From the IMG/VR virus record IMGVR_UViG_3300044997_000286, positions 1 through 20,537 of that record: DNA of 20,537 nt, one strand, 5' to 3'. The stretch is from a virus. The notes under the pieces are model-generated. The model was given only the letters and a program-made list of their open reading frames with translations, was not told the DNA's origin and searched no databases. Positions 1,058 to 19,547 of the stretch are shown here, piece by piece. The position numbers and the translations under genes were made by a program. The stretch's first letter is position 1; the number at the start of each line of letters is the position of its first letter.

Positions 1058-1639
1058 ATGAATGACGTTATGAAATATGTGATTACAGGTCATAGATCTG
1101 GTATAGGAGAAGCCATATTTAAATATTACGGTAAACAACCTAATATATATTGTGTTGGTTATGATAAATCACATTACTTAGATTTAAATGACGACAGAGT
1201 ACATTCAGATTTTTTAGAGAGATGTGAAGATGCTTCAGTTATTATATTAAACGCACATACTGGTAGACAACATATCTCTTTAAAAACCCTTTATACTCTT
1301 TACAAATCAAAACATAAACATATAATTGTAATTGGTTCATTAGTAAGTAAAATATGGAAAACACAACAAGAAGTCCCAAAAGGTTTTGAAGAATATTGGT
1401 CTCAAAAAATATTACTCGATAAAACAGTAGAAGAATTATATGATCCTAACAGTTCTTTTCTAGAACTATACACTCCACTTAAAATAAGTATTATTCGTCC
1501 AGCTTGGGTTGACACTCCATTAGCAAAAGATTATACAGGAAAAAAATTAACAATAAATTCAGTTTTAAATGCAGTAAGATTTATAATTGAGAATAAAGAT
1601 GCTTATATAACAAATATGGATTTACAATGTACGAATTAA
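1058..1639 (+). CDS. Short-chain dehydrogenase/reductase (SDR) family oxidoreductase
   Basis: This is a 193-residue Rossmann protein. It shows T-G-H-R-S-G-I-G at residues 10-17 (the SDR TGxxxGxG NAD(P) site), an N-A-H-T-G equivalent of NNAG at 65-69, Ser94 in V-I-G-S (catalytic Ser), Y113-x-x-x-K117 (catalytic Tyr and Lys), and I-R-P-A-W-V-D-T-P at 146-154, equivalent to the SDR PGxVxT segment. The complete triad argues for an active NAD(P)-dependent ketone/alcohol oxidoreductase; the substrate cannot be read. It is shorter than a typical 240-250 residue SDR, mostly in the central and C-terminal parts. A start at Met5 (1070) is possible. The last 13 nt overlap the aminotransferase gene, so the two are probably translationally coupled and may act in one pathway. 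Confidence 0.85.
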   Translation: MNDVMKYVITGHRSGIGEAIFKYYGKQPNIYCVGYDKSHYLDLNDDRVHSDFLERCEDASVIILNAHTGRQHISLKTLYTLYKSKHKHIIVIGSLVSKIWKTQQEVPKGFEEYWSQKILLDKTVEELYDPNSSFLELYTPLKISIIRPAWVDTPLAKDYTGKKLTINSVLNAVRFIIENKDAYITNMDLQCTN

Positions 1640-2850
1640 GAAATAGTGCTGACGGTGAAATTGAAAAAATAGTTAAGAATACTTATCGTTATTGGGTTGA
1701 GATGAATGATGGTAAAAAATATTTAGATATTCAATCTGGCAACAGTGCTTTTATACTTGGTTATGGAAATACTGAAATTATAAAAGCAATGGCTGACAAA
1801 ATATTTTCTGTTAGTTTTTTAAGAGGTAATACAGGTGAGACTGATGTTGATACTCAGGAACTAGTTTCTTTTGTATTATCTGAATCAAGAATGTCAGTAA
1901 TGTCTTGGGCTATTTCTGGCACATCAGCAGTGGAATGTGCGATTATGATGAATGATAGTTATTGGAAACAAGTAAATGCTAAAAAACATTTAATCGTATC
2001 TTGTTCTCCAGGATATCACGGTACAAGTTATTTGACTAGATGTATGGCTAATCCATATTCAATCGAATTTCCATCAGATAGATTAAGATGTATTCGTGCA
2101 CCTAAATGGAGGAATATAGAAGAACGTGCAGATGAAGAACAAAGAGCAATTATAGAGTTAGAAAGAAGACTCTCTAAATTTGATGACTCTTCAAATGTTG
2201 GTGCTTTTATAATGGAAACTTGTCCTTGGATGAATGGAATATTACCATATAGTAGATGGTGGTGGAATAGTGTAAGAAGTATTTGTGACAAATATAAAAT
2301 AAATTTTATTACAGATGATGTAGCAGTATGTTGGGGCAAATCATTATCTTATTTTGGTTATTCAACAGCAGGATACAATATTCAACCAGATATTATTGCT
2401 TGCGGTAAATCATTATCAGCAGGGTATGCACCGATAGGATTCGCAGTAGGTAATGCTCGTATAGGTGAAGTCCTTTCAACACAGGAGTGGGGATGGGGGC
2501 ATACTTGGCAACCTTATATGGCTGGTATTGGTGCGATGAAAAAAGTAAAAGAAATTATTTCAAATAATGGTTTATTTCATATAGCAAAAAATACAGTTAT
2601 ACGATTAGAAGAAATAGCAAAAGATTTATATAATCAAGGTTATTTAAATTGTTATAGACAAGAGGGTTTATTTTTAGAATTAGATTCTAAAAAACCAATT
2701 CTTGGAGTAATGGGAAAACTTATACGTTCAGGAATGTTATCAACTACTACACAAGACAGTTCAGTTAGAATTATAGCTAATTTAATTGCTGATGATGAGT
2801 ATTTTAGGGAATTAAAGGCAAGATTAAATGACTTTTTTAGCAAAAATTAA
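1627..2850 (+). CDS. Class III PLP-dependent aminotransferase
   Basis: This 407-residue protein has the class III (ornithine/GABA aminotransferase, glutamate-1-semialdehyde mutase) landmarks in order. They are S-G-T-S-A-V-E-C-A at about 97-105 (phosphate cup), Y-H-G at 130-132 (ring stacking), T-D230-D at 229-231 in place of the usual D-E-V (PLP N1), C-G-K261-S-L-S-A-G-Y-A-P-I-G (Schiff-base Lys261), and G-H-T-W at 291-294 in place of HxxTF. All key PLP ligands are present, so it should be active. It would move an amino group between an amine or amino acid and a carbonyl, or act as an aminomutase; the substrate is unknown. The 13-nt overlap with the SDR suggests a two-step alcohol-ketone-amine conversion (inference). 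The length is normal for the family. Confidence 0.9.
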   Translation: MYELRNSADGEIEKIVKNTYRYWVEMNDGKKYLDIQSGNSAFILGYGNTEIIKAMADKIFSVSFLRGNTGETDVDTQELVSFVLSESRMSVMSWAISGTSAVECAIMMNDSYWKQVNAKKHLIVSCSPGYHGTSYLTRCMANPYSIEFPSDRLRCIRAPKWRNIEERADEEQRAIIELERRLSKFDDSSNVGAFIMETCPWMNGILPYSRWWWNSVRSICDKYKINFITDDVAVCWGKSLSYFGYSTAGYNIQPDIIACGKSLSAGYAPIGFAVGNARIGEVLSTQEWGWGHTWQPYMAGIGAMKKVKEIISNNGLFHIAKNTVIRLEEIAKDLYNQGYLNCYRQEGLFLELDSKKPILGVMGKLIRSGMLSTTTQDSSVRIIANLIADDEYFRELKARLNDFFSKN

Positions 2851-6833: not shown

Positions 6834-7372
6834 AAAAAGAAATTACTCATTGGAGAGACAGAGCGTCTAATTTTAGAAAGTTATCTGATGTTGAGTTAAA
6901 CAACTGTTTAGCTAAATTAAAAAAATCTAAATTAAGTGCTAATATTCAAGATGACATGATTATGTGCCTTTCCAATTTAAGAGATTTAGGAATGGTTCCA
7001 TCTTTTCATATGGAATTACGAGAAAAGTTTTTTATATATTGTAAAGAGATAGGTGTAGATATCGATAGTTATAAAAGAGCAGAAGAAAAAAGAGTTATGA
7101 GTTCTTCTTTTGGTAGTATAGTGTGGGATAAGATAGTTAAACTATTAAACGATAATGAGGCAGATACTTCAAAAAGAGTTAAGGGTATAAAGAAATTAGT
7201 TCTTTTTCGTTTATTACAAAAAGAATTACCAGATGTTGATAAAAAACATATTCATAAAAACGTTAAGGCAAATATTAAATTAGGTGCTTTAGAATATCAT
7301 CAACAATCTAAGTCAAGTAAATTAATACGTAAAGGACAATATTGGAACACATATGTTAAAGTCAATAAGTAA
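6821..7372 (+). CDS. Hypothetical protein (183 aa)
   Basis: A soluble, mostly helical, basic protein, the last of the small-gene chain from P2. It overlaps its upstream neighbour by 13 nt and the desaturase by 20 nt. Helical segments run at about 1-35 (W-R-D-R-A-S-N-F-R-K-L-S), 40-80 and 100-135 (V-K-G-I-K-K-L-V-L-F-R-L-L-Q-K-E-L-P). The C-terminal part is Lys/His-rich and ends in W-N-T-Y-V-K-V. I do not recognise a family. The overlap with the desaturase ties the two in expression, not necessarily in function. Confidence 0.75.
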   Translation: MQEVKKEITHWRDRASNFRKLSDVELNNCLAKLKKSKLSANIQDDMIMCLSNLRDLGMVPSFHMELREKFFIYCKEIGVDIDSYKRAEEKRVMSSSFGSIVWDKIVKLLNDNEADTSKRVKGIKKLVLFRLLQKELPDVDKKHIHKNVKANIKLGALEYHQQSKSSKLIRKGQYWNTYVKVNK

Positions 7373-8186
7373 TTTTAGTTGGGAAGAATTTTCAACACGT
7401 AATAATCTATATTTTCGTGTTGCTTATTATATTTTTGTACATATATTAGCATTATTCGTATTTAAATATGGTACACTTACTACATTCTTTACGTTCATTT
7501 TATTCTGGTGGTTTGGTGCTTGGGCTGTATCAGGATATACGCATAGAGCACTTTCACATGGTTCAATTAAAGTTAAGAGTAATTTATTAGAACATTTAAG
7601 TAATATATTTGCTATATACGCAGGTATTGGTACTCCTTTAGGGTGGGCAGCACTACATCGTATGCATCATACTCATCTCGATACTCATTTAGATCCACAT
7701 AGTCCACACAGAATAGGATTTTGGAGATCCTATTTACATTTATGGGATTGGCGAAAAGAAGATGTACCATTAAAATATACAACAGGATTATTTCGTAATC
7801 ATATTGCTATGTATTATCACAATCGTGCTATTCCTACTTTATTTTTATTTTGGATTAGTTTATATATCGTATCAGAATTTTTAAAAGTTAATTTAGGAAT
7901 ATTGGGTGGCTTAGAAGTTTGTATTGGAGCAGCATTAGCTGTAGTTGCAGGATTACATGGAATGGGTGTTACAAATGCAGTAAGTCATAATCATGAAACA
8001 CCTAAACAAGTTATATCACTTGATCCAATCGCAGGTGCATTTATTAATTGGGGTGAAGGCAATCATGAATATCATCATGCTAAACCAAGGGATTATTCTT
8101 TTGGTGATGGTATCTCAGATCCTGTTGCTAGGACTGCCGAATTATTTGAACAATTAGATTTAGTTGAGATAAACAGAAACGAGTGA
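7353..8186 (+). CDS. Membrane fatty-acid desaturase (delta-9 type)
   Basis: This 277-residue integral membrane di-iron enzyme has all three histidine boxes: H64-R-A-L-S-H69, H102-R-M-H105-H106, and H238-E-Y-H241-H242, with hydrophobic segments at about 22-60, 82-98, 158-178 and 185-205. Length and box spacing match the DesC/stearoyl-type delta-9 desaturases, which use O2 and electrons from ferredoxin or cytochrome b5 to place a double bond in an acyl chain. It should be active and could raise membrane unsaturation in the infected cell. Desaturases are known auxiliary genes of marine T4-like phages. The gene starts within its upstream neighbour (20-nt overlap). Its stop region forms the left arm of a perfect 20-bp inverted repeat. 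Confidence 0.93.
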   Translation: MLKSISNFSWEEFSTRNNLYFRVAYYIFVHILALFVFKYGTLTTFFTFILFWWFGAWAVSGYTHRALSHGSIKVKSNLLEHLSNIFAIYAGIGTPLGWAALHRMHHTHLDTHLDPHSPHRIGFWRSYLHLWDWRKEDVPLKYTTGLFRNHIAMYYHNRAIPTLFLFWISLYIVSEFLKVNLGILGGLEVCIGAALAVVAGLHGMGVTNAVSHNHETPKQVISLDPIAGAFINWGEGNHEYHHAKPRDYSFGDGISDPVARTAELFEQLDLVEINRNE

Positions 8187-9132: not shown

Positions 9133-9855
9133 ATGTTATTTAATGAATCGGTTATAAATCATAAAGCACTTCATTATCAGATATGCCCTCTTCCTTTAAA
9201 TGATGAAGGAATGAAGTGGATGGAAGAACAAACATTTTCAAAACAAACTAAATTATGGGTGCCGATTAAGTATCACAGTCATGTGTTTTTGAAATGGACT
9301 AAAATGATTGGTTTAAGTATTACAGATATAGAATTATTTTATAATCCACCAAGTCATTCAATGCCTGTTCATATTGATGGAAATAATATTCATGATGAAT
9401 TTAAATTAAATTATGCTTTTAATCCAGTTGGAAATAGTTTAATGAATTGGTTTAAACCTAAAGTAAATACAGTAGCAAAAGCTCAAGGAGTGTTGTACGA
9501 AAATCAATCTGAAAGAGATATTAATACAGCAGATTTATATTGGTATCCTGATGAAGTTGATTTAGTTGAAAGTCATGATATTAAAGTTTCAATTGTTCAA
9601 GTTGGACAACCACATAATGTTACTACTACTCATTCTTCTCGTAAATGTTTATCTTGTGTATTTGATAAAATATTAATTCCAGGATGGACTACAAATGATC
9701 AGATTATATTAAATGAAGATTTAAGTAAAATATCATTAGATAGAGATAAAGCAGTTAAAGATGGAATTTTACAAGATGTTGTACCAATGTGGGATGCTGT
9801 AAATTTGTTTAAAAATTATATTATACAGCATGAACAGCATGAACAACATGAATAA
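9133..9855 (+). CDS. 2OG-Fe(II) oxygenase-like protein, family B member 1
   Basis: A 240-residue protein in which the double-stranded beta-helix iron site can be traced: M-P-V-H80-I-D82-G (HxD), then G-Q-P-H161-N-V (distal His) and S-R170-K-C-L-S (Arg that would hold the 2-oxoglutarate C5 carboxylate). Two proteins downstream (10018-10611 and 10580-11200) share the same plan, H-x-D then G-x-P-H-x-(V/I/M) then R, so the three are paralogues. The expected chemistry is O2- and 2OG-dependent hydroxylation of an unknown substrate, in the cytoplasm. The C terminus is a Q-H-E-Q-H-E-Q-H-E repeat made by a 9-bp tandem repeat that also contains starts for the next gene. Confidence 0.7.
   Translation: MLFNESVINHKALHYQICPLPLNDEGMKWMEEQTFSKQTKLWVPIKYHSHVFLKWTKMIGLSITDIELFYNPPSHSMPVHIDGNNIHDEFKLNYAFNPVGNSLMNWFKPKVNTVAKAQGVLYENQSERDINTADLYWYPDEVDLVESHDIKVSIVQVGQPHNVTTTHSSRKCLSCVFDKILIPGWTTNDQIILNEDLSKISLDRDKAVKDGILQDVVPMWDAVNLFKNYIIQHEQHEQHE
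9826..9852 (+). repeat. 9-bp tandem repeat (three units) at a gene junction
   Basis: Three copies of CAGCATGAA (9826-9834, 9835-9843) and CAACATGAA (9844-9852). In one frame they encode the Q-H-E triplets that end the upstream protein. In another frame each unit supplies an ATG (9830, 9839, 9848) for the zinc-finger gene. Copy-number change would alter both proteins without shifting either frame, since the unit is nine bases. Confidence 0.95.
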
Positions 9856-10021
9856 AAAAACAATTATAGAAACTTCAGAAGATACAGTTTACTGTGATGG
9901 ATACGATCCTGATCTAGATGACGATACTCATCCAAGAGTATTTTATACATTAAAAGAACGTCCAAATGGTGAAATAAATGCTGTTTGTTTTTATTGCGGT
10001 ATAATTTTTAAAAAAGTATGA
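9830..10021 (+). CDS. Small CHCC-type zinc-finger protein (57-63 aa)
   Basis: The sequence shows C22-D-G, then T-H34-P-R-V-F-Y, then C53-x-x-C56-G, which is the zf-CHCC pattern (C-D-G...H-P-x-V...C-x-x-C-G) found in mitochondrial complex I subunit NDUFS6 and in small bacterial proteins. One zinc ion should be held by the three Cys and one His. The middle is unusually acidic (D-P-D-L-D-D-D). Any of three ATGs (9830, 9839, 9848) in the 9-bp repeat could start it. It overlaps oxygenase genes on both sides (26 nt and 4 nt), so it is co-expressed with them, perhaps as a partner (inference). Confidence 0.75.
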   Translation: MNSMNNMNKKTIIETSEDTVYCDGYDPDLDDDTHPRVFYTLKERPNGEINAVCFYCGIIFKKV

Positions 10022-10611
10022 AAAATATTTATTGCGCAAATTTAAAATTACCAGTAAACGATGTAATGATAGATAAAAACTGGTTAAGTAAAATGCCTAA
10101 AAAGGGACACTTTCCTATACCAGAAAAAGAAGTAAATCCTGAATTATTAGATTTTTTTGAAAGCAAAGGAATGTACTTAAAAAATGCTGATGTATTTTGT
10201 TCTCCTCCTGGATTTTATTTACAAATACATATTGATGGAACAGATTTGGGTACTAATTCTTGTGCGATTAATTGGCAATATTGTACAGAAAAAGGTTCTT
10301 ATATGCAATGGTGGAATCCTAAACCTGAATTTGCAAATAAAGAAATTATAGAGCCAGAAAGTTTTAGTGAAAATAGTTATAAAATAGAAACAACACCATA
10401 TGCTTATGCTTGGACACCTGAAGAATGTGATTTAATTCATACATCTGAAATAGGTTATCCATCATTAGTAAATATTGGAGTACCACACTCAATGAAAAAT
10501 GATACAAAAGTTAATCGATATGCCGTTAGTTTAACTTGGAGGCGTTATAACGGTTCAACAGTAGAATGGAATTACGTATATGAGAAACTACAGTCATACG
10601 TTATGGCGTGA
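10018..10611 (+). CDS. 2OG-Fe(II) oxygenase-like protein, family B member 2
   Basis: A 197-residue paralogue of the preceding oxygenase-like protein. L-Q-I-H71-I-D73-G supplies two iron ligands, G-V-P-H157-S-M the third, and N-R167-Y-A-V the likely 2OG-binding Arg. Q-W-W-N-P-K-P (97-103) corresponds to N-W-F-K-P-K in member 1, a family-specific tryptophan segment between the two halves of the site. All metal ligands are present, so it should be active. It starts at an ATGA overlap with the zinc-finger gene and its end overlaps the next paralogue by 32 nt. The substrate is unknown. Confidence 0.7.
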   Translation: MKNIYCANLKLPVNDVMIDKNWLSKMPKKGHFPIPEKEVNPELLDFFESKGMYLKNADVFCSPPGFYLQIHIDGTDLGTNSCAINWQYCTEKGSYMQWWNPKPEFANKEIIEPESFSENSYKIETTPYAYAWTPEECDLIHTSEIGYPSLVNIGVPHSMKNDTKVNRYAVSLTWRRYNGSTVEWNYVYEKLQSYVMA

Positions 10612-11200
10612 GTTAAATTTACCAATATCACCGATTACTAAGGATTACGTATTTCCGAAAGAGTCGGAACAACACGATAACGCAAAGTATGAGGATCATT
10701 ACGCACAAAGAGAATTAATTAATCCTGATTTTATTAATTGGGCTAAGTCTATAGATCTTGGTGTACTCCGTATTGAAAGATTTTCATCTAAACCAAATTA
10801 TAGAATGTATATTCATACGGATAATGATGATTGGATAGATGATTTAGTTAAAATTATTTGGTGTTATTGTCCTACAGATGATCATTTTATGCATTGGTAT
10901 GATGTTAAAGATGTAACTTATTTCGAAACTGAAACAAATAACGATTCTGGTCCGACAATGCGATTTCCAGACTTTAATATTGATAAACTTATTACAAGCA
11001 CAACTATTAAACAAAATCCTATACTTGCGAATACTGGGCGACCGCATAATATAGAAAACGGAAGTAGTTATAGACATGTAGTTTGTGCTTGGTTTCATGA
11101 TTTAAAGTCAAATGAAACAGTTATAGCAGATGGAAACACTTATCCAAAACCTCTTCAGTGGAATGTTGCAGTTGAACGTATGAGTAAGTTTATATTATAA
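10580..11200 (+). CDS. 2OG-Fe(II) oxygenase-like protein, family B member 3
   Basis: A 206-residue paralogue of the two preceding oxygenase-like proteins. The site is M-Y-I-H79-T-D81, H-W-Y-D-V-K (105-110, the family tryptophan segment), G-R-P-H156-N-I and Y-R165-H-V-V. The metal set is complete. The start gives an unusual 32-nt overlap with the previous gene; the region before the first conserved block is long enough that a later start is conceivable, but no better ATG with a ribosome site is seen. Its stop codon lies inside a duplicated 17-bp unit that also carries TATAAATA late-promoter boxes for the ketosynthase gene. Confidence 0.7.
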   Translation: MRNYSHTLWRELNLPISPITKDYVFPKESEQHDNAKYEDHYAQRELINPDFINWAKSIDLGVLRIERFSSKPNYRMYIHTDNDDWIDDLVKIIWCYCPTDDHFMHWYDVKDVTYFETETNNDSGPTMRFPDFNIDKLITSTTIKQNPILANTGRPHNIENGSSYRHVVCAWFHDLKSNETVIADGNTYPKPLQWNVAVERMSKFIL

Positions 11201-11218
11201 ATAAGTTTATATTATAAA
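11185..11218 (+). repeat. 17-bp tandem duplication carrying late-promoter boxes
   Basis: 11185-11201 and 11202-11218 are two exact copies of a 17-bp unit. Each copy, with the two bases that follow, contains TATAAATA. The first copy includes the last codons and TAA of the upstream oxygenase-like gene; the second is non-coding. Duplication therefore doubled the promoter box without altering the protein. Confidence 0.95.
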
Positions 11219-11220
11219 TA
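11196..11220 (+). promoter_or_regulatory. Tandem T4-type late promoters
   Basis: TATAAATA occurs at 11196-11203 and 11213-11220, spaced 17 bp, upstream of the ketosynthase ATG at 11237. TATAAATA is the T4 late-promoter -10 consensus used by gp55-bound RNA polymerase. A start a few bases downstream of the second box would leave a leader of about 10 nt. These are the clearest late boxes in the window, and they imply that the ketosynthase-to-oxygenase block is expressed late. Confidence 0.7.
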
Positions 11221-11236
11221 TAATTAAGATTAGATT

Positions 11237-12412
11237 ATGAAACCAGTATATGTAGTTGGATATGGAATGATTGATAGTCTTGGAAATAATTCAAAAGATT
11301 GTTTCGATAGGATGTTAGATAATCATGATTATTCTTCTGAATTAACTGAATTGAAAGCAGAAAATGCTAAAGTGTATCGTGGTGCTATATTCAATCCAAA
11401 CGATTGCATTATACCAAAAGAATTTGATATTAAAATGCTTAGGTCATTGACCAATGCACAAAAAATGATGCTTCACGCAGTTGATGCAGCATTAAAAATG
11501 TCAAAGTTAACACATCACTATGATGTAGCAACTCTTCTTTCAACAGTTTCAAACGATACTGAATTTCTAGATGAGTTGTATTTACCCACAAAAAATCATA
11601 AAAGAGTAAATCCTAGAAAGTCAGCAAATCGTATTCCAGATATGGGATGTTCGCATATAACATCTTATTATAAATTTATGGGATTAAGTGCAGCAACATT
11701 CGCAAGTTGTTCTACTGGTCTTGTGACAATCGATTATGGAATGCGATTAGTTGATGAATATGAATACGTAGTTGTTGGTGGAGCTGATGCAGGTTGTTTT
11801 CCAATGGCTATTAAGTATTTCAATACATTAGGTGCTGTAGGAAATTACAGTATGCCTTTTGATGATAGCCGTACTGGTTTTTTAATGGGCGATGGTTGTG
11901 GTGTACTAATATTGCAATCAGAAGCTATGGTTAAAAAGTACGGAAGTAAGGTATTCGCTAAGTTATATCCTTGCGGTATGGCTAGTGATGCTTTAGATAT
12001 GACAAGCCCTGCTAATGATGGTCGTGGTGCTCGTATTAGTATGTCTAAAGCAATAAAAGATATCGGAGAAATAGATTTTGTATGTGCGCATGCAACTTCT
12101 ACACCAATAGGTGATCCGATAGAGTACGAAACTGTAGCAAGTTTCTTGGGAGAAAAACCTATTTGGGCTCCGAAGTCTAAAATAGGTCATACCCTAGCAG
12201 CTGCTGGAGTGTTAGAATGTATATATTCAATTATTTCAATGGAAAAAGGAATAATTCCTCATATACATAATTTAAAGAGTGCTTCTTGCGATACTAAAAA
12301 TCTTTTAGTACGTGAGAATTTAAAAACTAACAAAAAAGTATTGCGAACATTAAATAACTCATTCGGATTTGGGGGAAAATGTATGTCGCAAGTAATAGAG
12401 GTAAATAAATGA
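11237..12412 (+). CDS. Beta-ketoacyl-ACP synthase (FabF-like)
   Basis: A 391-residue thiolase-fold enzyme with a full decarboxylating-ketosynthase site: Cys158 in A-S-C-S-T-G, His285 in A-H-A-T-S-T-P-I-G-D, Lys313 and His318 in K-S-K-I-G-H-T-L-A-A-A-G, and the C-terminal S-F-G-F-G-G (375-380). The triad and lysine are those of KAS I/II, so it should condense an acyl chain with malonyl-ACP. It is slightly shorter than E. coli FabF (about 410 aa). The canonical N-A-H-G-T-S-T reads C-A-H-A-T-S-T here. It follows duplicated late promoters and overlaps a small membrane-protein gene by ATGA. It may extend host fatty acids, feed the phage desaturase, or serve a special acyl product; the sequence does not decide. 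Confidence 0.92.
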   Translation: MKPVYVVGYGMIDSLGNNSKDCFDRMLDNHDYSSELTELKAENAKVYRGAIFNPNDCIIPKEFDIKMLRSLTNAQKMMLHAVDAALKMSKLTHHYDVATLLSTVSNDTEFLDELYLPTKNHKRVNPRKSANRIPDMGCSHITSYYKFMGLSAATFASCSTGLVTIDYGMRLVDEYEYVVVGGADAGCFPMAIKYFNTLGAVGNYSMPFDDSRTGFLMGDGCGVLILQSEAMVKKYGSKVFAKLYPCGMASDALDMTSPANDGRGARISMSKAIKDIGEIDFVCAHATSTPIGDPIEYETVASFLGEKPIWAPKSKIGHTLAAAGVLECIYSIISMEKGIIPHIHNLKSASCDTKNLLVRENLKTNKKVLRTLNNSFGFGGKCMSQVIEVNK

Positions 12413-12558
12413 AAACAATAATACTTTTAGCAATCGGTGTATTAATCGGTTGGCTTTATAAACCAGCGTTTGCTGATAATATTATAAACAAATCTAAAGA
12501 AATTATAATTGGTGCTTACACTAATTTGAAATCCTTATTTAAAAAAGGAGACAAATAG
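12409..12558 (+). CDS. Small membrane or secreted protein (49 aa)
   Basis: Starts at an ATGA overlap with the ketosynthase stop. Residues 3-16 (T-I-I-L-L-A-I-G-V-L-I-G-W-L) form one membrane helix, followed by Y-K-P-A-F-A-D-N, where A-F-A could be a signal-peptidase site. The rest is amphipathic and Lys-rich (L-K-S-L-F-K-K-G-D-K). It is either a single-pass inner-membrane peptide or a short exported one. No family is recognised. Coupling to the ketosynthase places it in the late block. Confidence 0.65.
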   Translation: MKTIILLAIGVLIGWLYKPAFADNIINKSKEIIIGAYTNLKSLFKKGDK

Positions 12559-12563
12559 TAAAA

Positions 12564-12974
12564 ATGGCACGGACAATTAGTAAAACGGAAATAACAAATA
12601 CAAAGGAGATACCCCAACGTCAAAAATCGTGGGGTTATCACCTAATTATTGATGCAAAAGGTTGTACTAAAAATTTTAATAAACCAGAAATTTTAAAAAC
12701 ATTTTTAAATGACCTTTTAGTTCAAATTGATATGAACGCATGGGGTGATCCATGGATTACTCACTTTTCTGAAAAACCAGAGATAGCTGGTTGGACAGTA
12801 ATACAAGCATTGACTACAAGTTCATTAACAATACACTTTTTAGACAATAGTGGTGATTGTTATTTCGATTTGTTTTCGTGCAAAACTTTTGATATTGAAA
12901 TGGTGAAAACTATGATAAAAGTATACTTTGATCCTATTTCAATGAAGGATCAGTATCTTGTTAGACAAGCGTAA
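12564..12974 (+). CDS. speD: S-adenosylmethionine decarboxylase-like proenzyme (SpeD/SpeH type)
   Basis: A 136-residue protein with W-G-Y-H-L-I-I-D-A-K-G-C (residues 23-34), like the opening strand of bacterial AdoMetDC (G-x-H-L-I-x-D-x-x-G-C), and S-L-T-I-H91...F-D-L-F-S-C106. Ser86 lies 5 residues before His91, and Cys106 lies 15 after, the same spacing as Ser63, His68 and Cys83 of the Thermotoga enzyme. Ser86 would become the pyruvoyl cofactor by self-cleavage. The residue before it is Thr where Glu is usual, so processing should be tested. The product, decarboxylated AdoMet, donates aminopropyl groups for spermidine. SpeD genes are known in cyanophages. It overlaps the next gene by 17 nt. 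Confidence 0.82.
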   Translation: MARTISKTEITNTKEIPQRQKSWGYHLIIDAKGCTKNFNKPEILKTFLNDLLVQIDMNAWGDPWITHFSEKPEIAGWTVIQALTTSSLTIHFLDNSGDCYFDLFSCKTFDIEMVKTMIKVYFDPISMKDQYLVRQA

Positions 12975-13440
12975 CATCACACCAAAAGAAGCAGTAAAAG
13001 AGTGGTTGGCGAGACTTAAAATACCTCGCCAAGCACTTGATGGTCATTCCATATGTCCCTTTAGTAAAGGAATTAATGTAAAAAAACCAGAGGACTTGCA
13101 TATAGATATATCTTTCCGCCCTCCTTTACTTTCACAAATTAGAAAAATTAAAATTTATAATATAACCAATCCTAATCTTACACCTGTAGAATTAGATTAT
13201 TGGTGTGAATATTTTACAAACAGATATGAAAATTATATATTTATGAGTGACCATAAAGATAGAGACACTTATATTAATGGAATTAAAACGAATAATGGTT
13301 ATTTTAATTTCATGTTAGTTCAAAGTTTACCAGAATTAAATGAAGCACGTAAGAGTTTATTAAAAACAAACTATTATAGTTTTTGGGATCCTGAATACTT
13401 AAAAGAGACTTGGAATAATAGTTTTAACAAAGATGAATAA
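12958..13440 (+). CDS. Hypothetical protein between speD-like and amidinotransferase genes (160 aa)
   Basis: A soluble protein overlapping the AdoMetDC-like gene by 17 nt and ending 2 nt before the amidinotransferase. It has W-L-A-R-L-K-I-P-R, then D-G-H-S-I-C33-P-F-S-K-G, a D-I-S-F-R-P-P strand, and a late segment L-P-E-L-N-E-A-R-K-S-L-L...W-D-P-E-Y. The C-P-F motif near the N terminus recalls small uncharacterised bacterial proteins with a C-P-W/C-P-F opening, but I cannot name a family. Its place between two arginine/AdoMet enzymes suggests a shared role (inference). Confidence 0.7.
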   Translation: MLDKRNITPKEAVKEWLARLKIPRQALDGHSICPFSKGINVKKPEDLHIDISFRPPLLSQIRKIKIYNITNPNLTPVELDYWCEYFTNRYENYIFMSDHKDRDTYINGIKTNNGYFNFMLVQSLPELNEARKSLLKTNYYSFWDPEYLKETWNNSFNKDE

Positions 13441-13442
13441 TT

Positions 13443-14525
13443 ATGAGTGTTTGGACTGACTACGATTCATTAAAAGAAATTATTATTGGTGTTATACCAA
13501 AGCCTGAATACTTTTCAAATTTTTTAAAACCAGATATATTAGAAGTCCTTATTCCAATTATAAAAGAAACAGAAGAAGACTTAGAAAGATTTTCGAATAT
13601 ATGTACTTCTTTAGGGGTAAAAGTATACAGACCAAAGGTAATGGATTTTAGAGAACCATTAAAGCTTCCTGGATTTAAAATTAAAAATCCAATCGCACCA
13701 TTAGTTCCGAGAGATAGTTATCTAGTATATGGAAATACAATCTATTCTTCTTATACAAGTATGGCTGATAGGTGGTTAGAGTCATTATCCTTTTATGATA
13801 TATTTATGGATAAGTATAAAGAAGGATATAATTGGATATCGACACCAGTTCCACAGCTAAAAGATTTTCGCCCTGATACTCAATGGTACACTCATGGTGG
13901 TGATCGTTATGGAGTAGATTTAGTTAATAAAATATTATGGCATTGTGCTACGATGTATAAATGTGGTGATGCAATAATTGTAAATTCTTCTGGTCCTGGA
14001 ACTAAGTTAGGATATGAATGGATGAAACGAAACATACCAAATACTAGATTTATAGATAATGGAAATAAACCACATCGAGGATGGGGGCATATAGATCAGT
14101 TTTTTTTTCAAACAGATGACACAACTGTATTCTGTACTAATCGAAACTATGTACCTGAGGTATTCCTAAATAATAATAAGTTTAAAGTACATGAATTTGG
14201 TCATTTAATTAAAGATGTAGATATGAAAATATATGAACATCGTCTTGCTCAAACAGATGGTAAGTATAGTATTGAATGGATTAATGAGTGGATAGATGAA
14301 TGGAGAGGTTTTGCTCAAGAAGTAGCATTTGATAGTAATGTAGTTGTAGTTGATAATAAAAATATAATTGTTACTAACGAACAACCAGCACTTTCAAATT
14401 ATTTTAAAGAATTTGGTATAACATTACATCCTGTTAATTTAAGACAAGGTGGATTTTGGGATGGCGGAGTTCATTGTTTATCACTTGATATTAAACGAGA
14501 TGGAGAAAAAAGAAGCATTATATGA
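13443..14525 (+). CDS. Amidinotransferase (glycine amidinotransferase-like)
   Basis: A 360-residue enzyme of the guanidino-group-modifying superfamily. Visible active-site elements are P-R90-D91-S-Y-L-V (substrate/positioning Asp), D176 in C-G-D-A-I-I-V-N, W-G-H216-I-D218-Q (catalytic His with Asp), and G-G-V-H-C345-L-S-L-D (nucleophilic Cys), in the order and spacing of AGAT. Enzymes of this family transfer the amidino group of arginine through a Cys-amidino intermediate to an amine such as glycine, releasing ornithine; deiminase-like hydrolysis is the alternative. The length fits AGAT-type enzymes better than arginine deiminases. It lies 2 nt after one gene and overlaps the first array oxygenase by ATGA. 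The acceptor amine is unknown. Confidence 0.85.
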   Translation: MSVWTDYDSLKEIIIGVIPKPEYFSNFLKPDILEVLIPIIKETEEDLERFSNICTSLGVKVYRPKVMDFREPLKLPGFKIKNPIAPLVPRDSYLVYGNTIYSSYTSMADRWLESLSFYDIFMDKYKEGYNWISTPVPQLKDFRPDTQWYTHGGDRYGVDLVNKILWHCATMYKCGDAIIVNSSGPGTKLGYEWMKRNIPNTRFIDNGNKPHRGWGHIDQFFFQTDDTTVFCTNRNYVPEVFLNNNKFKVHEFGHLIKDVDMKIYEHRLAQTDGKYSIEWINEWIDEWRGFAQEVAFDSNVVVVDNKNIIVTNEQPALSNYFKEFGITLHPVNLRQGGFWDGGVHCLSLDIKRDGEKRSII

Positions 14526-15517
14526 GAAAAGTTTATAACTGGATAAATCCTACACATTACGTGGATTATGAAAAATTAAAGAATGTAATCGTTCCTTTAA
14601 TGCAAGAAGATTTAAATGAGTGGATGAAAACAAATCCTATTGAGACAAGCACTGAATGTGCTTATGCTCCACCAGAAGAAGTAGAAGAAAAAATATTATC
14701 ACAGAAACAAGAGATAAAAGCACATAAGAATCGTTCGATAGCTTATAAAGAACTTCTTACAGATGAAGCTGAAAGAAAACATTATAATGACTGGAGATCA
14801 ATAGATTTTCTTTATGAACGTAAATGGAATAAAGAAGTATTTAAAAGATCTTGGCAATTAATGTCTGAGTGTGTAGGAGTTAAACAAATTTTTATTAATT
14901 TTATTAAACCACATGGAATTATTACACCACATCTAGATACTTCTACTTGGGAAAAAATAGAAGAAGACTGGGAATTACCACTTTATACATTAGAGGGTGC
15001 AAGTATTATTGCTACACTTTTTACAGGTATGAAAAATAGAGAAACTAAGTCTGTTGGAATGAAAGTTAATGGAGTTTATAAGTATCCATTAGCAGGAGAA
15101 TTAGTTTGCTTTGATGGAAGATGGAACGAACATCAAATGTGGAATAATACAGATGAATGGAGAATTACAGCAGTTATAGATATTGATAGAAAATTTTTTA
15201 ATGAAGTAGTTGAAGATGTTGATGAAGAAAAAATAGAAATAAAAAAACCAAAAGACATAATTACCATAGAGGAAGGTGTAACACTTAAACTTAAAAATTA
15301 TTTTAGCAAAGAAGAAGTAGAATATTATTTAAATCATAATTTAACTGAGAAAATAGAATTTTTAAAAGATAGAATACTTTGGTTAACCAATTCAGGGCGT
15401 AAAATATACGCAGACTATTTAGATGAAGATTCAACAACAATTTTTTTAAATAGTAATATAGCAAAAATAGATATTTACTTTAAATCATATAGAGATTTTT
15501 ATGTTCATAGCACCTAA
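14522..15517 (+). CDS. Asp/Asn beta-hydroxylase-like 2OG oxygenase with C-terminal extension (array member 1)
   Basis: This is the first and longest (331 aa) of six paralogues. The core site is I-N-F-I-K-P-H-G-I-I-T-P-H137-L-D139 (HxD), C-F-D-G-R-W-N-E-H204-Q-M-W-N-N-T (distal His) and E-W-R214-I-T-A-V-I-D (2OG Arg). The order H-x-D, F-D-x-x-x-x-x-H-x-x-W-N, R-I-x-x-V-x-D resembles aspartyl/asparaginyl beta-hydroxylases, except that the second position is Asp where AspH has Gly, so a full facial triad is present. Residues 230-331 are an extra region found in no other member here and not recognised. An insertion at 50-85 is Glu/Lys-rich. It overlaps the amidinotransferase by 4 nt. Confidence 0.78.
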   Translation: MRKVYNWINPTHYVDYEKLKNVIVPLMQEDLNEWMKTNPIETSTECAYAPPEEVEEKILSQKQEIKAHKNRSIAYKELLTDEAERKHYNDWRSIDFLYERKWNKEVFKRSWQLMSECVGVKQIFINFIKPHGIITPHLDTSTWEKIEEDWELPLYTLEGASIIATLFTGMKNRETKSVGMKVNGVYKYPLAGELVCFDGRWNEHQMWNNTDEWRITAVIDIDRKFFNEVVEDVDEEKIEIKKPKDIITIEEGVTLKLKNYFSKEEVEYYLNHNLTEKIEFLKDRILWLTNSGRKIYADYLDEDSTTIFLNSNIAKIDIYFKSYRDFYVHST

Positions 15518-16196
15518 TTCTTATATTGATTATGCTTTTTTATTAGATTATTATCCATCATTAGTTGAGGATATGAATGAATGGCTTAAAACGCATACAC
15601 CAGAAAAAGATTCAATAAGTGTATATGCTGATGATGAACCTGTAAATAAATTTTTATCTACTACTATTAATTTCGTAGAAACTTGGACAACTCATGAAGA
15701 ATATGAGCATCGTAATGATTGGAAATCTATACCTGTATTCTTTGAAAAGGTGTGGAATGAGAAAGATTTTCCTAGATTTTCAGAGCATGGTAAAAAATTA
15801 AAAGGATTAAGGCAATTAATTATTAATTTTATTGCTCCATATGGTAAAATAACATTACATACTGATGTTGATAATTGGGCTAAGATGACTCAAGACTGGG
15901 GTTGTAAATGTGAAGGATATTCATTAATTGCTACTTTGAAATCAGGTATGAAAAATTCTAAAGAAGAAACAGTTGGAACACGCATAAGAAATATTAAAAC
16001 TGGTGATGACACATGGGCTTATCCAATTGAGAATGAATTTGTTTGTTTTGATGGATTAAATTATAATCATGCAATAACTAACAATACAAACGAATGGAGA
16101 ATTTCAGCTGTGTTTGATATTGATAAAGAAAAATTTAATTCTAATTATATTAAAACTGGTAAACAAGTTTGTGAATCTTTTAAAGAAATTATATGA
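15501..16196 (+). CDS. Asp/Asn beta-hydroxylase-like 2OG oxygenase (array member 2)
   Basis: A 231-residue paralogue of the preceding oxygenase. The shared blocks are V-E-D-M-N-E-W-L-K-T-H (22-32), R-N-D-W-K-S-I-P (71-78), I-I-N-F-I-A-P-Y-G-K-I-T-L-H120-T-D122, Y-S-L-I-A-T-L-K-S-G-M-K-N, V-C-F-D-G...H190, and E-W-R200-I-S-A-V-F-D-I-D. The metal and 2OG residues are complete. The start overlaps the previous extension by 17 nt, and its end overlaps the next gene by ATGA. It lacks the tryptophan after the distal His seen in most paralogues (A-I-T-N-N-T instead of M-W-N-N-T), which may affect substrate choice. Confidence 0.78.
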   Translation: MFIAPNSYIDYAFLLDYYPSLVEDMNEWLKTHTPEKDSISVYADDEPVNKFLSTTINFVETWTTHEEYEHRNDWKSIPVFFEKVWNEKDFPRFSEHGKKLKGLRQLIINFIAPYGKITLHTDVDNWAKMTQDWGCKCEGYSLIATLKSGMKNSKEETVGTRIRNIKTGDDTWAYPIENEFVCFDGLNYNHAITNNTNEWRISAVFDIDKEKFNSNYIKTGKQVCESFKEII

Positions 16197-16888
16197 AAGA
16201 CTATCCTTTTAGTTTAAAATTAGAAAAAATATTTGATCCAATTATAAATTTAAATTCTATATACACGTACCCTGCTGGTAGGCATGTTTTAGAAAAGGTT
16301 TACGATCATAAAACAACTAAAATATCTTCAGATAATTTAAAAAAATTAGAAACTGATAATTGGAAAGTAAAACTAATCGAATTATATGTTATACCACATG
16401 AGACTAAATGGACTGATATAAATTCAACTCATTGTGGATATCCAAGTCTTGATCCTCATATATTAAGACATTATTCACCAAATATATCAATGGAAGGAAC
16501 TGCTAAATTATTTTTTATATATGGTGGCGATTTAAATAGTAAAATGGAGTGGTTTAAATTAAAACCTTTAGCTTCAGAAAGTTCATTTAACAGCGATGGT
16601 CACCCTCTGACAAAGCGTAATTACGCATTTTGTGCTGCTCTTTTTAAAGAAAGTGATTGTGAATTAATTTTTGAATCAAAATTACAAAATTTAATGTTTA
16701 TTAATGTATCATTACCTCATAGAATAAATAATTCTAATTCTTATAAAAAGATTTATATAATAAGTTGTTTATTTGAAGATGAAGAATATGAAATTAAAAA
16801 TAATGTTCATGAAAAATGGATACATTATACCAGAGGAATATCGATTAAACAAGCTTCTCAAATATATAATAATTTATTAGAAAAATAA
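16193..16888 (+). CDS. Degenerate family B oxygenase-like protein
   Basis: This 231-residue protein sits inside the AspH-like array but resembles the other family (9133-11200). M-E-W-F-K-L-K-P (118-125) and N-V-S-L-P-H176-R-I-N-N align with N-W-F-K-P-K and G-x-P-H-x-(V/I/M). At the HxD position it reads D-P-H89-I-L91, so the iron-binding Asp is replaced by Leu, and the Arg position holds Lys (Y-K185-K). It is therefore probably unable to bind iron normally and may be a pseudo-enzyme, partner or regulator. The frame is intact and overlapped by its neighbour (ATGA at its start), so it is not a decaying pseudogene. The alignment is by eye. Confidence 0.62.
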   Translation: MKDYPFSLKLEKIFDPIINLNSIYTYPAGRHVLEKVYDHKTTKISSDNLKKLETDNWKVKLIELYVIPHETKWTDINSTHCGYPSLDPHILRHYSPNISMEGTAKLFFIYGGDLNSKMEWFKLKPLASESSFNSDGHPLTKRNYAFCAALFKESDCELIFESKLQNLMFINVSLPHRINNSNSYKKIYIISCLFEDEEYEIKNNVHEKWIHYTRGISIKQASQIYNNLLEK

Positions 16889-16889
16889 A

Positions 16890-17633
16890 ATGTGGATGGA
16901 TGTAAAAAAATATAAAGATTATCAAAAATTAAATGATTGTCAACCTTTAATTATTGATGATTTAAAAAATTGGTTAAAAACTCACAAAATTGAAGAAGCA
17001 AAACTTGTATTTTCCAGTAATGACTCAAAAGATTCAGTAAGAAAACATAACTGGAATATTTCTTATGCTTGGCTAACTCCAAAGGGAATAACTTTTACTG
17101 ATCCTGAAGAAGAAGTAGATGAAACAGAAGATACTCCAAATCCAGCATTTAATCCAAACACATATAAACATGTAGATAATTGGAGATTTGTTCCAGGATA
17201 CGTTGAGGGTAAATGGAATATGGAATTTTTAAGTGTAAAAACACAAAAAGTATTAAGTGAATTACAAGGATTGCTACAAATGAATATAAATTTCTTAACT
17301 CCATTTGGAAAAATAACACCACATACAGATGTGGGTAGTTGGAATAAAATGGCTACTTATTATAATAAGCCAGACATAGATGGCTATTTAATTATATCAA
17401 CAATACATTCGGGTATGACGGATCCTAAAACTAAAACGGTGGGTATGCGTGTAGGTATAGGTGACTCGTATATGAATTGGCAACCAGATGATTATGTTGA
17501 ACGTAGATACCCATTAGTTGGAGAATTAGTTTGTTTTGATGGAAGAAGAGGGGTTCATGACATGTGGAATAATACAAAAGAGTATCGTATAACTGCTGTA
17601 TTTGATATAGATAAAAACGCATTTAATTTATGA
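16890..17633 (+). CDS. Asp/Asn beta-hydroxylase-like 2OG oxygenase (array member 3)
   Basis: A 247-residue paralogue starting 1 nt after the previous stop. It opens M-W-M-D-V-K-K-Y-K-D-Y, matching the openings of members 5 and 6. The site is M-N-I-N-F-L-T-P-F-G-K-I-T-P-H145-T-D147-V-G-S-W, V-C-F-D-G-R-R-G-V-H223-D-M-W-N-N-T and E-Y-R233-I-T-A-V-F-D-I-D. All residues are intact. An acidic insert (D-P-E-E-E-V-D-E-T-E-D, about 71-81) lies before the conserved D-N-W-R-F-V-P block. Soluble, cytoplasmic, probably 2OG- and O2-dependent; the substrate is unknown. Confidence 0.8.
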   Translation: MWMDVKKYKDYQKLNDCQPLIIDDLKNWLKTHKIEEAKLVFSSNDSKDSVRKHNWNISYAWLTPKGITFTDPEEEVDETEDTPNPAFNPNTYKHVDNWRFVPGYVEGKWNMEFLSVKTQKVLSELQGLLQMNINFLTPFGKITPHTDVGSWNKMATYYNKPDIDGYLIISTIHSGMTDPKTKTVGMRVGIGDSYMNWQPDDYVERRYPLVGELVCFDGRRGVHDMWNNTKEYRITAVFDIDKNAFNL

Positions 17634-18328
17634 TAATTGAAACACGAACATTTAAATGGTATAAACAATTAATTGAATTACAAGAATTAATTAAAGAAGA
17701 TTTTAATAATTGGTTATTAAAATATAAATTTGAAGATAGAGTTCAAGTACAAAAATTTGAAAATCCAGAAGTGTATCCTGAATATTCAAACATTACAGGT
17801 GATATGGATGATTATCATAGACCTGAGAATATAAAAGATAAAGAAGAGGGTAAGTCAAAAGAATATTGGTTTTGTGATCCTATACTTACAAATAAAGGTA
17901 ATATTAAATGTAAGTATTATGAAGATTGGAAAAACTCTGCTGACTTTGCTGCTAAAATTCCAGGACTAGTACAATATATTGTAAATTTTGTAAGACCAAA
18001 AGCTAAACTTCCTATGCACGATGATAGTGGTGGTTGGAAAAGACAAGAAAAAGATTTAGGAATTAAATTAAACGGATTTACAAATGTATTTGGTTTACAA
18101 GCTAATGGAAATAATTCTTATTTTGAATTTGGTAAAACAAATTCTAAACACCCATTAAACACAGGACAATGGATAACATTTGAAGGCAAAACACATGATC
18201 ACAACGTAGTGAATAATAGTAGTATGTGGCGTGTAACTGCAGTTGTCGACTTTTTAGCATCTGAGTATAACCTTTCAATAGAAGAAAATAAATACTTAAA
18301 TCATAGATGGAATAACTATAATTACTAA
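17630..18328 (+). CDS. Asp/Asn beta-hydroxylase-like 2OG oxygenase (array member 4)
   Basis: A 232-residue paralogue with an ATGA overlap at its start. The site is V-N-F-V-R-P-K-A-K-L-P-M-H130-D-D132-S-G-G-W-K-R, W-I-T-F-E-G-K-T-H-D-H191-N-V-V-N-N-S and M-W-R201-V-T-A-V-V-D-F. The ligands are present. This and the next two members share L-P-(M/L/V)-H-x-D and the F-x-G...H...N-W/M-W-R pattern, so they form a subgroup distinct from members 1-3 (T-P-H or T-L-H). The N-terminal 100 residues are poorly conserved, which suggests divergence of substrate or partner binding. Confidence 0.76.
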   Translation: MIIETRTFKWYKQLIELQELIKEDFNNWLLKYKFEDRVQVQKFENPEVYPEYSNITGDMDDYHRPENIKDKEEGKSKEYWFCDPILTNKGNIKCKYYEDWKNSADFAAKIPGLVQYIVNFVRPKAKLPMHDDSGGWKRQEKDLGIKLNGFTNVFGLQANGNNSYFEFGKTNSKHPLNTGQWITFEGKTHDHNVVNNSSMWRVTAVVDFLASEYNLSIEENKYLNHRWNNYNY

Positions 18329-18329
18329 T

Positions 18330-18914
18330 ATGTGGATAGACGCAAAAAAATATAAACATTATGAATATCTTAATAAAAGTTTAATTCCTGCATTGGAATT
18401 AGATTACAATAGATTTATTCGTAAATTTAATATAATAGAAACAGGTATAAATGTATTTCGATTTGAATATCCAAATCGAGAAGATGATCATGCTGATGAT
18501 TGGTGGGCAATACCACTTATTCAAGGAGGCAAAGCAGTTCCACCTTTAAAAAATCCATGGCAGCATTCAACAGCAAGTCTTAAAGAAATTCCAGGAGTAT
18601 TTCAATCGATCGTAAACTTTATAAAACCATTCGGTGGTTTACCATTACATCACGATTTTGGTAGTTGGCAAAGGATTGAAGAAGCATTAGGTCGTCGAGT
18701 AGAAGGATATACACTTGCGATAGGTATTGATATGCCTTCAAATGACCCAAATATTTGTGGTATGGAGTTTGAAAATGACAATTATCCAAGAACTTATAAA
18801 AATAATGAAATCGTAGCATTTAATGGGCGTGATTATATGCATAGAGTATGGAATAAGACAGGAAATTGGCGTGTTTCTTGCGTAATTGATACAAATGTAG
18901 ATAGTTGGTTATGA
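18330..18914 (+). CDS. Asp/Asn beta-hydroxylase-like 2OG oxygenase (array member 5)
   Basis: The most compact array member so far (194 aa), starting 1 nt after the previous stop with M-W-I-D-A-K-K-Y-K-H-Y. The site is I-V-N-F-I-K-P-F-G-G-L-P-L-H107-H-D109-F-G-S-W, I-V-A-F-N-G-R-D-Y-M-H171-R-V-W-N-K-T and N-W-R181-V-S-C-V-I-D. All key residues are present. The usual F-D of the FDGR block is F-N. It ends 1 nt before the -35 box of promoter P3, so the next paralogue can be expressed separately. Confidence 0.8.
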   Translation: MWIDAKKYKHYEYLNKSLIPALELDYNRFIRKFNIIETGINVFRFEYPNREDDHADDWWAIPLIQGGKAVPPLKNPWQHSTASLKEIPGVFQSIVNFIKPFGGLPLHHDFGSWQRIEEALGRRVEGYTLAIGIDMPSNDPNICGMEFENDNYPRTYKNNEIVAFNGRDYMHRVWNKTGNWRVSCVIDTNVDSWL

Positions 18915-18915
18915 C

Positions 18916-18944
18916 TTTACAAACAACTTAAATTATAGTATAAT
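18916..18944 (+). promoter_or_regulatory. Sigma70-type promoter P3
   Basis: TTTACA (18916-18921) and TATAAT (18939-18944) are 17 bp apart within TATAGTATAATAT, which is identical to the P1 -10 region. The element fits exactly in the 39-bp gap between two oxygenase paralogues. The start point would fall near 18950-18952, leaving two to four bases before the ATG at 18954, so the transcript should be leaderless or nearly so. Only the last oxygenase and the following genes would come from it. Confidence 0.8.
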
Positions 18945-18953
18945 ATTGAATAT

Positions 18954-19547
18954 ATGTGGCTTGGTAATCCTACAAATTATAAACACTATCATGAATTAAG
19001 CATTATGATGATGGCTTTGATGAGCGATTATGCTGAATGGAGAAGGCAACGATCCTTTGAAACAAATACAGTAAATGCTGATGATCGTTATTCTATGCCT
19101 ATTGAAAATAAAGGTGGATTTAAAGCATTACCATTAATTGATGCTCGCAAAATAAATGAACAACTAGAAGATAGATATTATTGGAAACGTGCTACTACAC
19201 AATTTTATCATATTCCTGGTGCTATAGATTTATGTATTAATATGATACGTCCTGGGAAAATGTTACCAGTTCATCATGATGGTTATGTTTGGGACTGGAT
19301 CCGTCAGAGTATGGGAGATCCTACGTTAGAGGGGTATACTGTAAGCTTTGGTATTGATATACCAGAACCTGAAAATCAAGGACTAATATTTGATGGTGTA
19401 GAAAAAATTTGGAAAACAGGTGAGTTCGTAGCGTTTAATGGTCATGATATTCAACATAGTTTAACAAATAAATCAAATAATCCAATGCATTGGCGTGTGA
19501 CAGCTGTAATGGAAATAGATAAAAAAGAATTTAACACAATACAATAA
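18954..19547 (+). CDS. Asp/Asn beta-hydroxylase-like 2OG oxygenase (array member 6)
   Basis: A 197-residue paralogue opening M-W-L-G-N-P-T-N-Y-K-H-Y. The site is I-N-M-I-R-P-G-K-M-L-P-V-H107-H-D109-G, F-V-A-F-N-G-H-D-I-Q-H168-S-L-T-N-K-S and H-W-R181-V-T-A-V-M-E-I-D. The metal and 2OG residues are complete. It keeps the family's central E-G-Y-T-(V/L)-x-x-G-I-D strand shared with member 5, its closest relative by eye. It is the only array member with its own sigma70-type promoter (P3) and would be made early from a near-leaderless mRNA, while the others may be expressed from upstream late promoters. Confidence 0.8.
   Translation: MWLGNPTNYKHYHELSIMMMALMSDYAEWRRQRSFETNTVNADDRYSMPIENKGGFKALPLIDARKINEQLEDRYYWKRATTQFYHIPGAIDLCINMIRPGKMLPVHHDGYVWDWIRQSMGDPTLEGYTVSFGIDIPEPENQGLIFDGVEKIWKTGEFVAFNGHDIQHSLTNKSNNPMHWRVTAVMEIDKKEFNTIQ

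Follow-up and report, generated by a model that had tools for sequence, protein, structure and literature searches.

Marine T4-like cyanophages are known to carry 2-oxoglutarate (2OG) oxygenases, with up to five per genome in the clusters listed (PMC3037559), and in three cyanophage genomes we find six to eight matches to PF13640, the eight of Syn1 being mostly scattered. Phage-encoded biosynthetic gene clusters have also been described, but they are rare: they occur in 69 of 10,062 phage genomes, mostly as bacteriocin clusters of temperate phages, and predictions for 153 cyanophages gave none (PMC10452541). Here we analyse a 20,537-base virus record (IMG/VR IMGVR_UViG_3300044997_000286), referred to as the window and coded G000, alongside comparison contigs (coded G###) and loci (coded L###). 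In the window, two arrays of oxygenase-fold genes, AspH-like family A (A1 to A6) and family B (B1 to B4), flank genes for a beta-ketoacyl synthase (KAS), a SpeD-like decarboxylase, the protein g12958 and a member of the arginine amidinotransferases, AmdT (Table 1). We lean towards the view that the run 9133-19547 encodes a phage pathway for a guanidino or amine metabolite, in which the oxygenases would serve as successive tailoring steps.

A first-pass annotation of this DNA had considered an array of this size unusual. The number of genes alone is not extreme, given the eight in Syn1, but an operonic array together with biosynthesis genes is: cyanophage 2OG oxygenases are mostly scattered, whereas here paralogous arrays lie within a biosynthetic operon. 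P-HM1 encodes two PF05118 (AspH-like) proteins, but their genes lie 15 kb apart, which rules it out as a precedent for the AspH-like array. With the known phage biosynthetic clusters the run shares the co-localisation of biosynthetic enzymes in a phage genome, and its genes are co-conserved as well; it differs in that the known clusters mostly make bacteriocins. No relatives of A1, A5 or B2 were found in 50,697 phage records, open papers yielded no description of the cluster, and for two protein families of the cluster no characterised member was found.

All ten reading frames are present at the starts given by the first-pass annotation, and the tandem array of oxygenases that it described is borne out. 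A1 to A6 are paralogues: A5 as query retrieves the other five (E 5.9e-26 to 2.5e-14), and A2 to A6 are 24-44% identical to A1, with H137, D139, H204 and R214 (A1 numbering) invariant. The H-x-D...H...R motif is found in all six, in 24/24 sequences of a diverse family A alignment and in 84/84 clustered relatives, as against 96/527 other open reading frames (ORFs) of similar length from the same loci, a background that may itself include oxygenases. Family A has the fold and motif of the PF05118 superfamily (AspH, LpxO, L-proline cis-4-hydroxylase), while its scores straddle the cut-off of Pfam Asp_Arg_Hydrox (PF05118), A1 and A5 lying above it and A2, A3, A4 and A6 below. An AlphaFold model of A5 (24-sequence alignment; pLDDT 93.8, pTM 0.90) has 207 matches in the PDB at E<=0.001, headed by the AspH oxygenase domain (E 3.5e-8, TM about 0.7 on the query) and followed by L-proline cis-4-hydroxylase and others. 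In the A5 model, as in that of B2 described below, the HxD, the distal His and the Arg lie on strands or strand ends in an order that fits a double-stranded beta helix, and we take this to be the predicted fold of family A. Animal AspH has a two-His iron site without the metal-binding Asp. In contrast, the family A proteins, which are about 16% identical to AspH and occur here as six in tandem in one phage, all keep this Asp; they are short (194-331 residues), and A5 matches only the oxygenase domain of AspH. We therefore rejected an animal-type AspH, with its two-His site lacking an acidic ligand and its tetratricopeptide repeat (TPR) domain. The N-terminal half of family A, previously described as variable, is not simply so, since it has nearly invariant residues of its own (Y8, Y11, L14 and D25).

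Family B is more remote from known proteins. B1 to B4 have no counterpart among the Pfam oxygenase families or the PHROGs, and PDB sequence searches with family B, as with g12958, returned nothing usable. However, they retrieve each other plus about 40 viral relatives; in a 40-sequence alignment the motif residues are mostly kept (H 40/40, D 38/40, H 40/40, R 35/40), and 62/64 clustered relatives carry H-x-D...H...R against the same background of 96/527. The B2 model (40-sequence alignment; pLDDT 92.2) gives weak matches in the PDB (E about 1e-4, TM 0.3-0.5), the best 50 of which are nearly all 2OG oxygenases or cupins, and in BFVD close matches to uncharacterised proteins of uncultured phages (E 5.9e-17, TM 0.84). 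On this model family B is a divergent oxygenase-fold family with a predicted double-stranded beta helix. Fold comparison, proposed in the first-pass annotation and carried out for A5 and B2, thus led to 2OG oxygenases in both cases. The division into two families is correct, because the A and B profiles cannot be related (hhalign probability 1.3%). The iron and 2OG ligands are intact, as annotated, in A1 to A6 and B1 to B3. In B4 and its orthologue the Asp is missing and Lys replaces the Arg, and B4 is probably no normal 2OG oxygenase; it also has the highest dN/dS (ratio of nonsynonymous to synonymous substitution rates) of the ten. That the other nine are oxygenases is very likely. Two more family B genes, one of them without the Arg, lie about 36 kb from the cluster in G001 (47.5-48.9 kb; L026:7524-8969).

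The enzymes between the arrays point to amine chemistry. The SpeD-like protein keeps S86, H91 and C106; Gln81, Thr85 and Phe92 are invariant, and the window protein has a Tyr in the 102 region. PMC10407285 gives Gln, Thr, Phe and Tyr residues as diagnostic of ornithine decarboxylase, and those found here are of the right kinds at plausible positions, matched by residue kind rather than by exact column. Several SpeD homologues of freshwater phages have measured ornithine decarboxylase activity (PMC9992855). With this SpeDC type the window protein has in common the pyruvoyl Ser, the catalytic His and the Cys, and it is probably of the same type; here, however, its gene shares an operon with those of AmdT, g12958 and the oxygenase arrays. 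The best solved relatives of AmdT are HsvA, StrB1, SxtG and AGAT (E 4.8e-21 to 3.5e-17), with homology over most of the AmdT chain and conserved Cys and His motifs, although AmdT forms a separate viral family. G215-H216-I217-D218 (GHID) and H344-C345 (HC) are invariant in four diverged members, and the sequence around the Cys can be aligned with HsvA and StrB1, so that AmdT has the predicted hallmarks of an arginine amidinotransferase, a His in GHxD and a Cys in GGxHC. Likely catalytic residues are retained in KAS, the SpeD-like protein, AmdT and nine oxygenases.

These genes are also kept together. Between 12564 and 19547 no gap between adjacent genes exceeds 39 bases. Many genes of the block overlap by 4-32 bases or adjoin within a few bases; the larger gaps precede KAS (36 bases), follow it (151) and precede A6 (39). 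The block B-KAS-SpeD-g12958-AmdT-A is kept in the window-like contigs G001, G005, G008, G006 and G003 and in the more distant G013, G014 and G016 (AmdT identity 70, 62 and 46%); in G016 it falls into two parts about 6.5 kb apart, one with KAS next to the B genes, the other comprising SpeD-g12958-AmdT-A. All window-like A-array loci of sufficient length include AmdT, and those without it are all short contigs that start inside the array. Single genes do vary, as G001 is without A4 and B4, and G008 without B4. Compared with G005, dN/dS is 0.07-0.31 for the ten oxygenase-fold genes and 0.07-0.18 for KAS, SpeD-like, g12958 and AmdT, and all of them are under purifying selection. The A protein tree, some deeper forks of which are weak, has four old lineages (A1/A2/A3, A4, A5 and A6). 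Orthologues of the A1, A4, A5 and A6 types are collinear in G013 and G014, with three genes kept in G016, while A1 to A3 look like later copies within the window's own clade. Since the four lineages keep their order across diverged viruses, their roles are probably distinct and non-redundant, in agreement with the divergence to different roles suggested by the first-pass annotation.

Among the substrates considered in that annotation, a small molecule built by the neighbouring enzymes is the best supported, because both families, KAS, the decarboxylase, g12958 and AmdT stay together as one block in relatives. A plausible route can be drawn. AmdT would take the amidino group from arginine, pass it to an amine and release ornithine, which the SpeDC-type enzyme would convert to putrescine, and putrescine may in turn be the amine acceptor of AmdT; the pair is chemically sensible because amidinotransferases release ornithine from arginine. 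The omega-transaminase and short-chain dehydrogenase-like protein (AT3 and SDR) encoded upstream could interconvert amine, aldehyde and alcohol ends, KAS could add or transfer an acyl unit by way of a host carrier protein, and the nine oxygenases would hydroxylate successive positions of the growing guanidino or amine product. The product is probably a heavily hydroxylated, nitrogen-rich small molecule, and it could be directed at the host cell or at competitors, or function as an unusual polyamine for the phage DNA. Several points weigh against such a pathway. No ligase or thioesterase was noticed, and no acyl carrier protein (ACP; PF00550) was found in the phage contigs, so KAS must borrow a host ACP or act otherwise. 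Among 80 AmdT loci KAS is restricted to the 16 window-like ones; family B occurs also where no AmdT is in range and is thus not bound to the pathway alone; and variable regions of phages can gather unrelated auxiliary genes. Should the pathway exist, T4-like phages would produce complex small molecules of their own during infection, in contrast to the prevailing picture of phage biosynthetic clusters as rare and mostly devoted to bacteriocins of temperate phages. The ordered series of diverged hydroxylases also offers material for studying the evolution of oxygenase specificity.

AmdT itself reaches well beyond the window. Its relatives were found at 146 viral loci, 80 of which were kept for a survey of neighbourhoods (at least 39% identity to the window protein) and collapsed to 43 non-redundant loci. 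Near AmdT in these 43 are g12958 (31), AT3 (23), family B (19), SpeD (18), SDR (17) and family A (10), and in 27 of them g12958 is the next upstream neighbour; the AmdT-g12958 pair thus extends further than the oxygenase expansion and probably predates it. Radical-SAM proteins, a tryptophan-halogenase-family protein (3.7e-82) and more PF05118 proteins also recur near AmdT. It is tempting, if distinctly more tentative than the reading of the window itself, to propose that AmdT and g12958 mark a virus-only class of biosynthetic clusters in many aquatic phages, whose products would be hypermodified guanidino metabolites and whose tailoring sets, be they oxygenase arrays, radical SAM enzymes or halogenases, would be interchangeable; in the window it would be the oxygenases that expanded. 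Scans of 84,980 prokaryote genomes with two short AmdT patterns, and a genome scan with B2 relatives, returned no relatives and thus nothing pointing to a bacterial origin, although patterns this short do not prove absence. Close to AmdT/g12958 clusters of aquatic phages (L165:12845-14452 and 22/80 AmdT loci), a flavin-dependent halogenase of the tryptophan family occurs with radical-SAM and B12-radical-SAM genes. A third expanded family of about 180 residues ('comp 8'; L150:1362-4989) has 71 genes spread over 26 loci, with as many as six in an array; HxD..H..R is found in 45/71, one member weakly touches PF05118, and the family is probably another oxygenase array. Another AmdT clade (L177:11436-16368) has genes that resemble QueD and QueE by sequence, which suggests a different use of AmdT, and Campylobacter phage CP220 has a 27% identical relative among radical-SAM genes. 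T4-like cyanophages, S-PM2 and Syn1 among them, also have relatives of g12958 (28-38% identity); in the two neighbourhoods examined, those of Syn1 and Sf-FR1, the gene is close to the baseplate gene gp25 and no AmdT is annotated.

The strongest rival, which we regard as unlikely, is that each paralogue hydroxylates a different host or virion protein and that the amine enzymes form an independent polyamine module. Phage polyamine enzymes are indeed known on their own (PMC9992855), the closest fold to A5 is that of the peptide-hydroxylating AspH, and the weak fold matches of B2 include FIH and the ribosomal oxygenases NO66 and YcfD. However, family B reaches TM-scores of only 0.3-0.5 against protein hydroxylases, small-molecule oxygenases score similarly (GriE and KanJ, and L-proline cis-4-hydroxylase for A5), and no A arrays were found apart from the AmdT block. 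Less probable still is a remodelling of membrane lipids, whereby KAS and the desaturase encoded upstream would alter acyl chains, the AspH-like enzymes would hydroxylate lipids in the manner of LpxO, a lipid A hydroxylase within PF05118, and AmdT and AT3 would decorate an amino lipid. KAS is FabF-like, and a desaturase gene lies upstream in all relatives compared, but it is separate from the block and diverges faster (47% identity in G014, 31% in G016); other AmdT clusters lack KAS yet keep oxygenases, and no acyltransferase or glycerolipid gene was noticed.

Two further explanations are very improbable. Hypermodification of phage nucleic acid by TET- or AlkB-like oxygenases could be inferred from the distal His/Arg region, which weakly matches a Tet-like dioxygenase (E 0.03-0.06), and from the QueD- and QueE-like genes of the other AmdT clade; but the match spans about 40 residues of generic motif, the whole-fold matches favour AspH, and no thymidylate-synthase-type enzyme is present in G001, G002, G003, G013 or G016, which are incomplete contigs. 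Least probable is a 2OG sink, by which many oxygenases would lower 2OG and disturb host nitrogen signalling, as a 2OG-modulating role has been proposed for oxygenase-rich cyanophages (PMC3037559), since one efficient enzyme would suffice for it and neither four diverged lineages in conserved order nor linkage to AmdT and KAS would be needed. A role in anti-phage defence was dropped, as PADLOC models had no match among the ten cluster proteins at E<=0.001.

Table 1. Features of the window discussed in the text
Feature	Position	Strand	Description	dN/dS
SDR	1058..1639	+	short-chain dehydrogenase-like; motifs TGxxxGIG/YWSQK and YxxxK present; no Pfam match; overlaps AT3	
AT3	1627..2850	+	class-III aminotransferase, omega-transaminase type; Pfam Aminotran_3 2e-41	
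Desaturase-like	7353..8186	+	fatty-acid desaturase-like membrane protein with His boxes; NCBIfam DesA 3.5e-7, far under curated cut-off	
B1	9133..9855	+	oxygenase-fold protein; HxD..H..R intact	0.18
B2	10018..10611	+	oxygenase-fold protein; site intact; modelled	0.07
B3	10580..11200	+	oxygenase-fold protein; site intact	0.09
TATAAATA, two words	11196..11220	+	T4-late-promoter-like; tandem, before KAS	
KAS	11237..12412	+	FabF-like beta-ketoacyl synthase; C-H-H triad; Pfam 1e-22/3.7e-22; FabF structures E 2.6e-41	
SpeD-like	12564..12974	+	pyruvoyl decarboxylase, probably ornithine-decarboxylase (SpeDC) type; Pfam AdoMet_dc 2.7e-13	
g12958	12958..13440	+	phrog_10325; CPF/CPY motif; function unassigned; AmdT partner	
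AmdT	13443..14525	+	arginine:amine amidinotransferase family; His216 and Cys345 conserved, likely catalytic	
A1	14522..15517	+	AspH-like oxygenase with C-terminal extension; HxD..H..R intact; PF05118 2.5e-6	0.19
A2	15501..16196	+	AspH-like oxygenase; site intact	0.12
B4	16193..16888	+	family B protein without Asp and Arg ligands; not in G001 and G008 arrays	0.31
A3	16890..17633	+	AspH-like oxygenase; site intact	0.16
A4	17630..18328	+	AspH-like oxygenase; site intact; missing from G001	0.07
A5	18330..18914	+	AspH-like oxygenase; site intact; modelled; PF05118 4.7e-6	0.15
A6	18954..19547	+	AspH-like oxygenase; site intact; orthologues in G001, G013, G014 and G016	0.11

One TATAAATA copy is kept at -25 of KAS in window-like relatives. 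In the window the word occurs less often than expected by chance, and it is not enriched upstream of other G001 genes, and we make no claim of late-promoter control over a KAS-A operon. Matches to KAS in phage records were set aside, as they lie mostly in unannotated records with the appearance of bacterial contamination.

The carrier of the cluster appears to be a T4-like virus of aquatic bacteria: the structural genes of the relative G001 (144,834 bases) are T4-type. Among isolates, its major capsid protein is closest to those of Methylophilales phage Melnitz (66% identity) and Pelagibacter phage HTVC008M (64%), and cyanophages follow. The first-pass annotation spoke of marine T4-like phages, but 'marine' finds no support for the present one; many of the source datasets are probably from lakes. 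Neither Melnitz nor HTVC008M is among the matches for family A, family B or AmdT.

Upstream of the block, the PDB relatives of AT3 are gamma-aminobutyrate (GABA), polyamine and omega transaminases, and an SDR orthologue adjoins AT3 in G001 and G014. Downstream of the arrays, G001 and most window-like relatives have a second class-III aminotransferase gene (L028:16172-17392), whose product is about 32% identical to AT3. Orthologues of the desaturase-like protein are found in G001, G005, G013, G014 and G016, only loosely linked to the block. Directly before B1, a protein of phrog_3704 (1.6e-86; window 8456-9124), annotated as 'ferredoxin', is missing at this place in G013 and G014. The window also has one tRNA-Arg, a phage exonuclease and a pyrimidine-dimer-glycosylase-like gene truncated at the window end.

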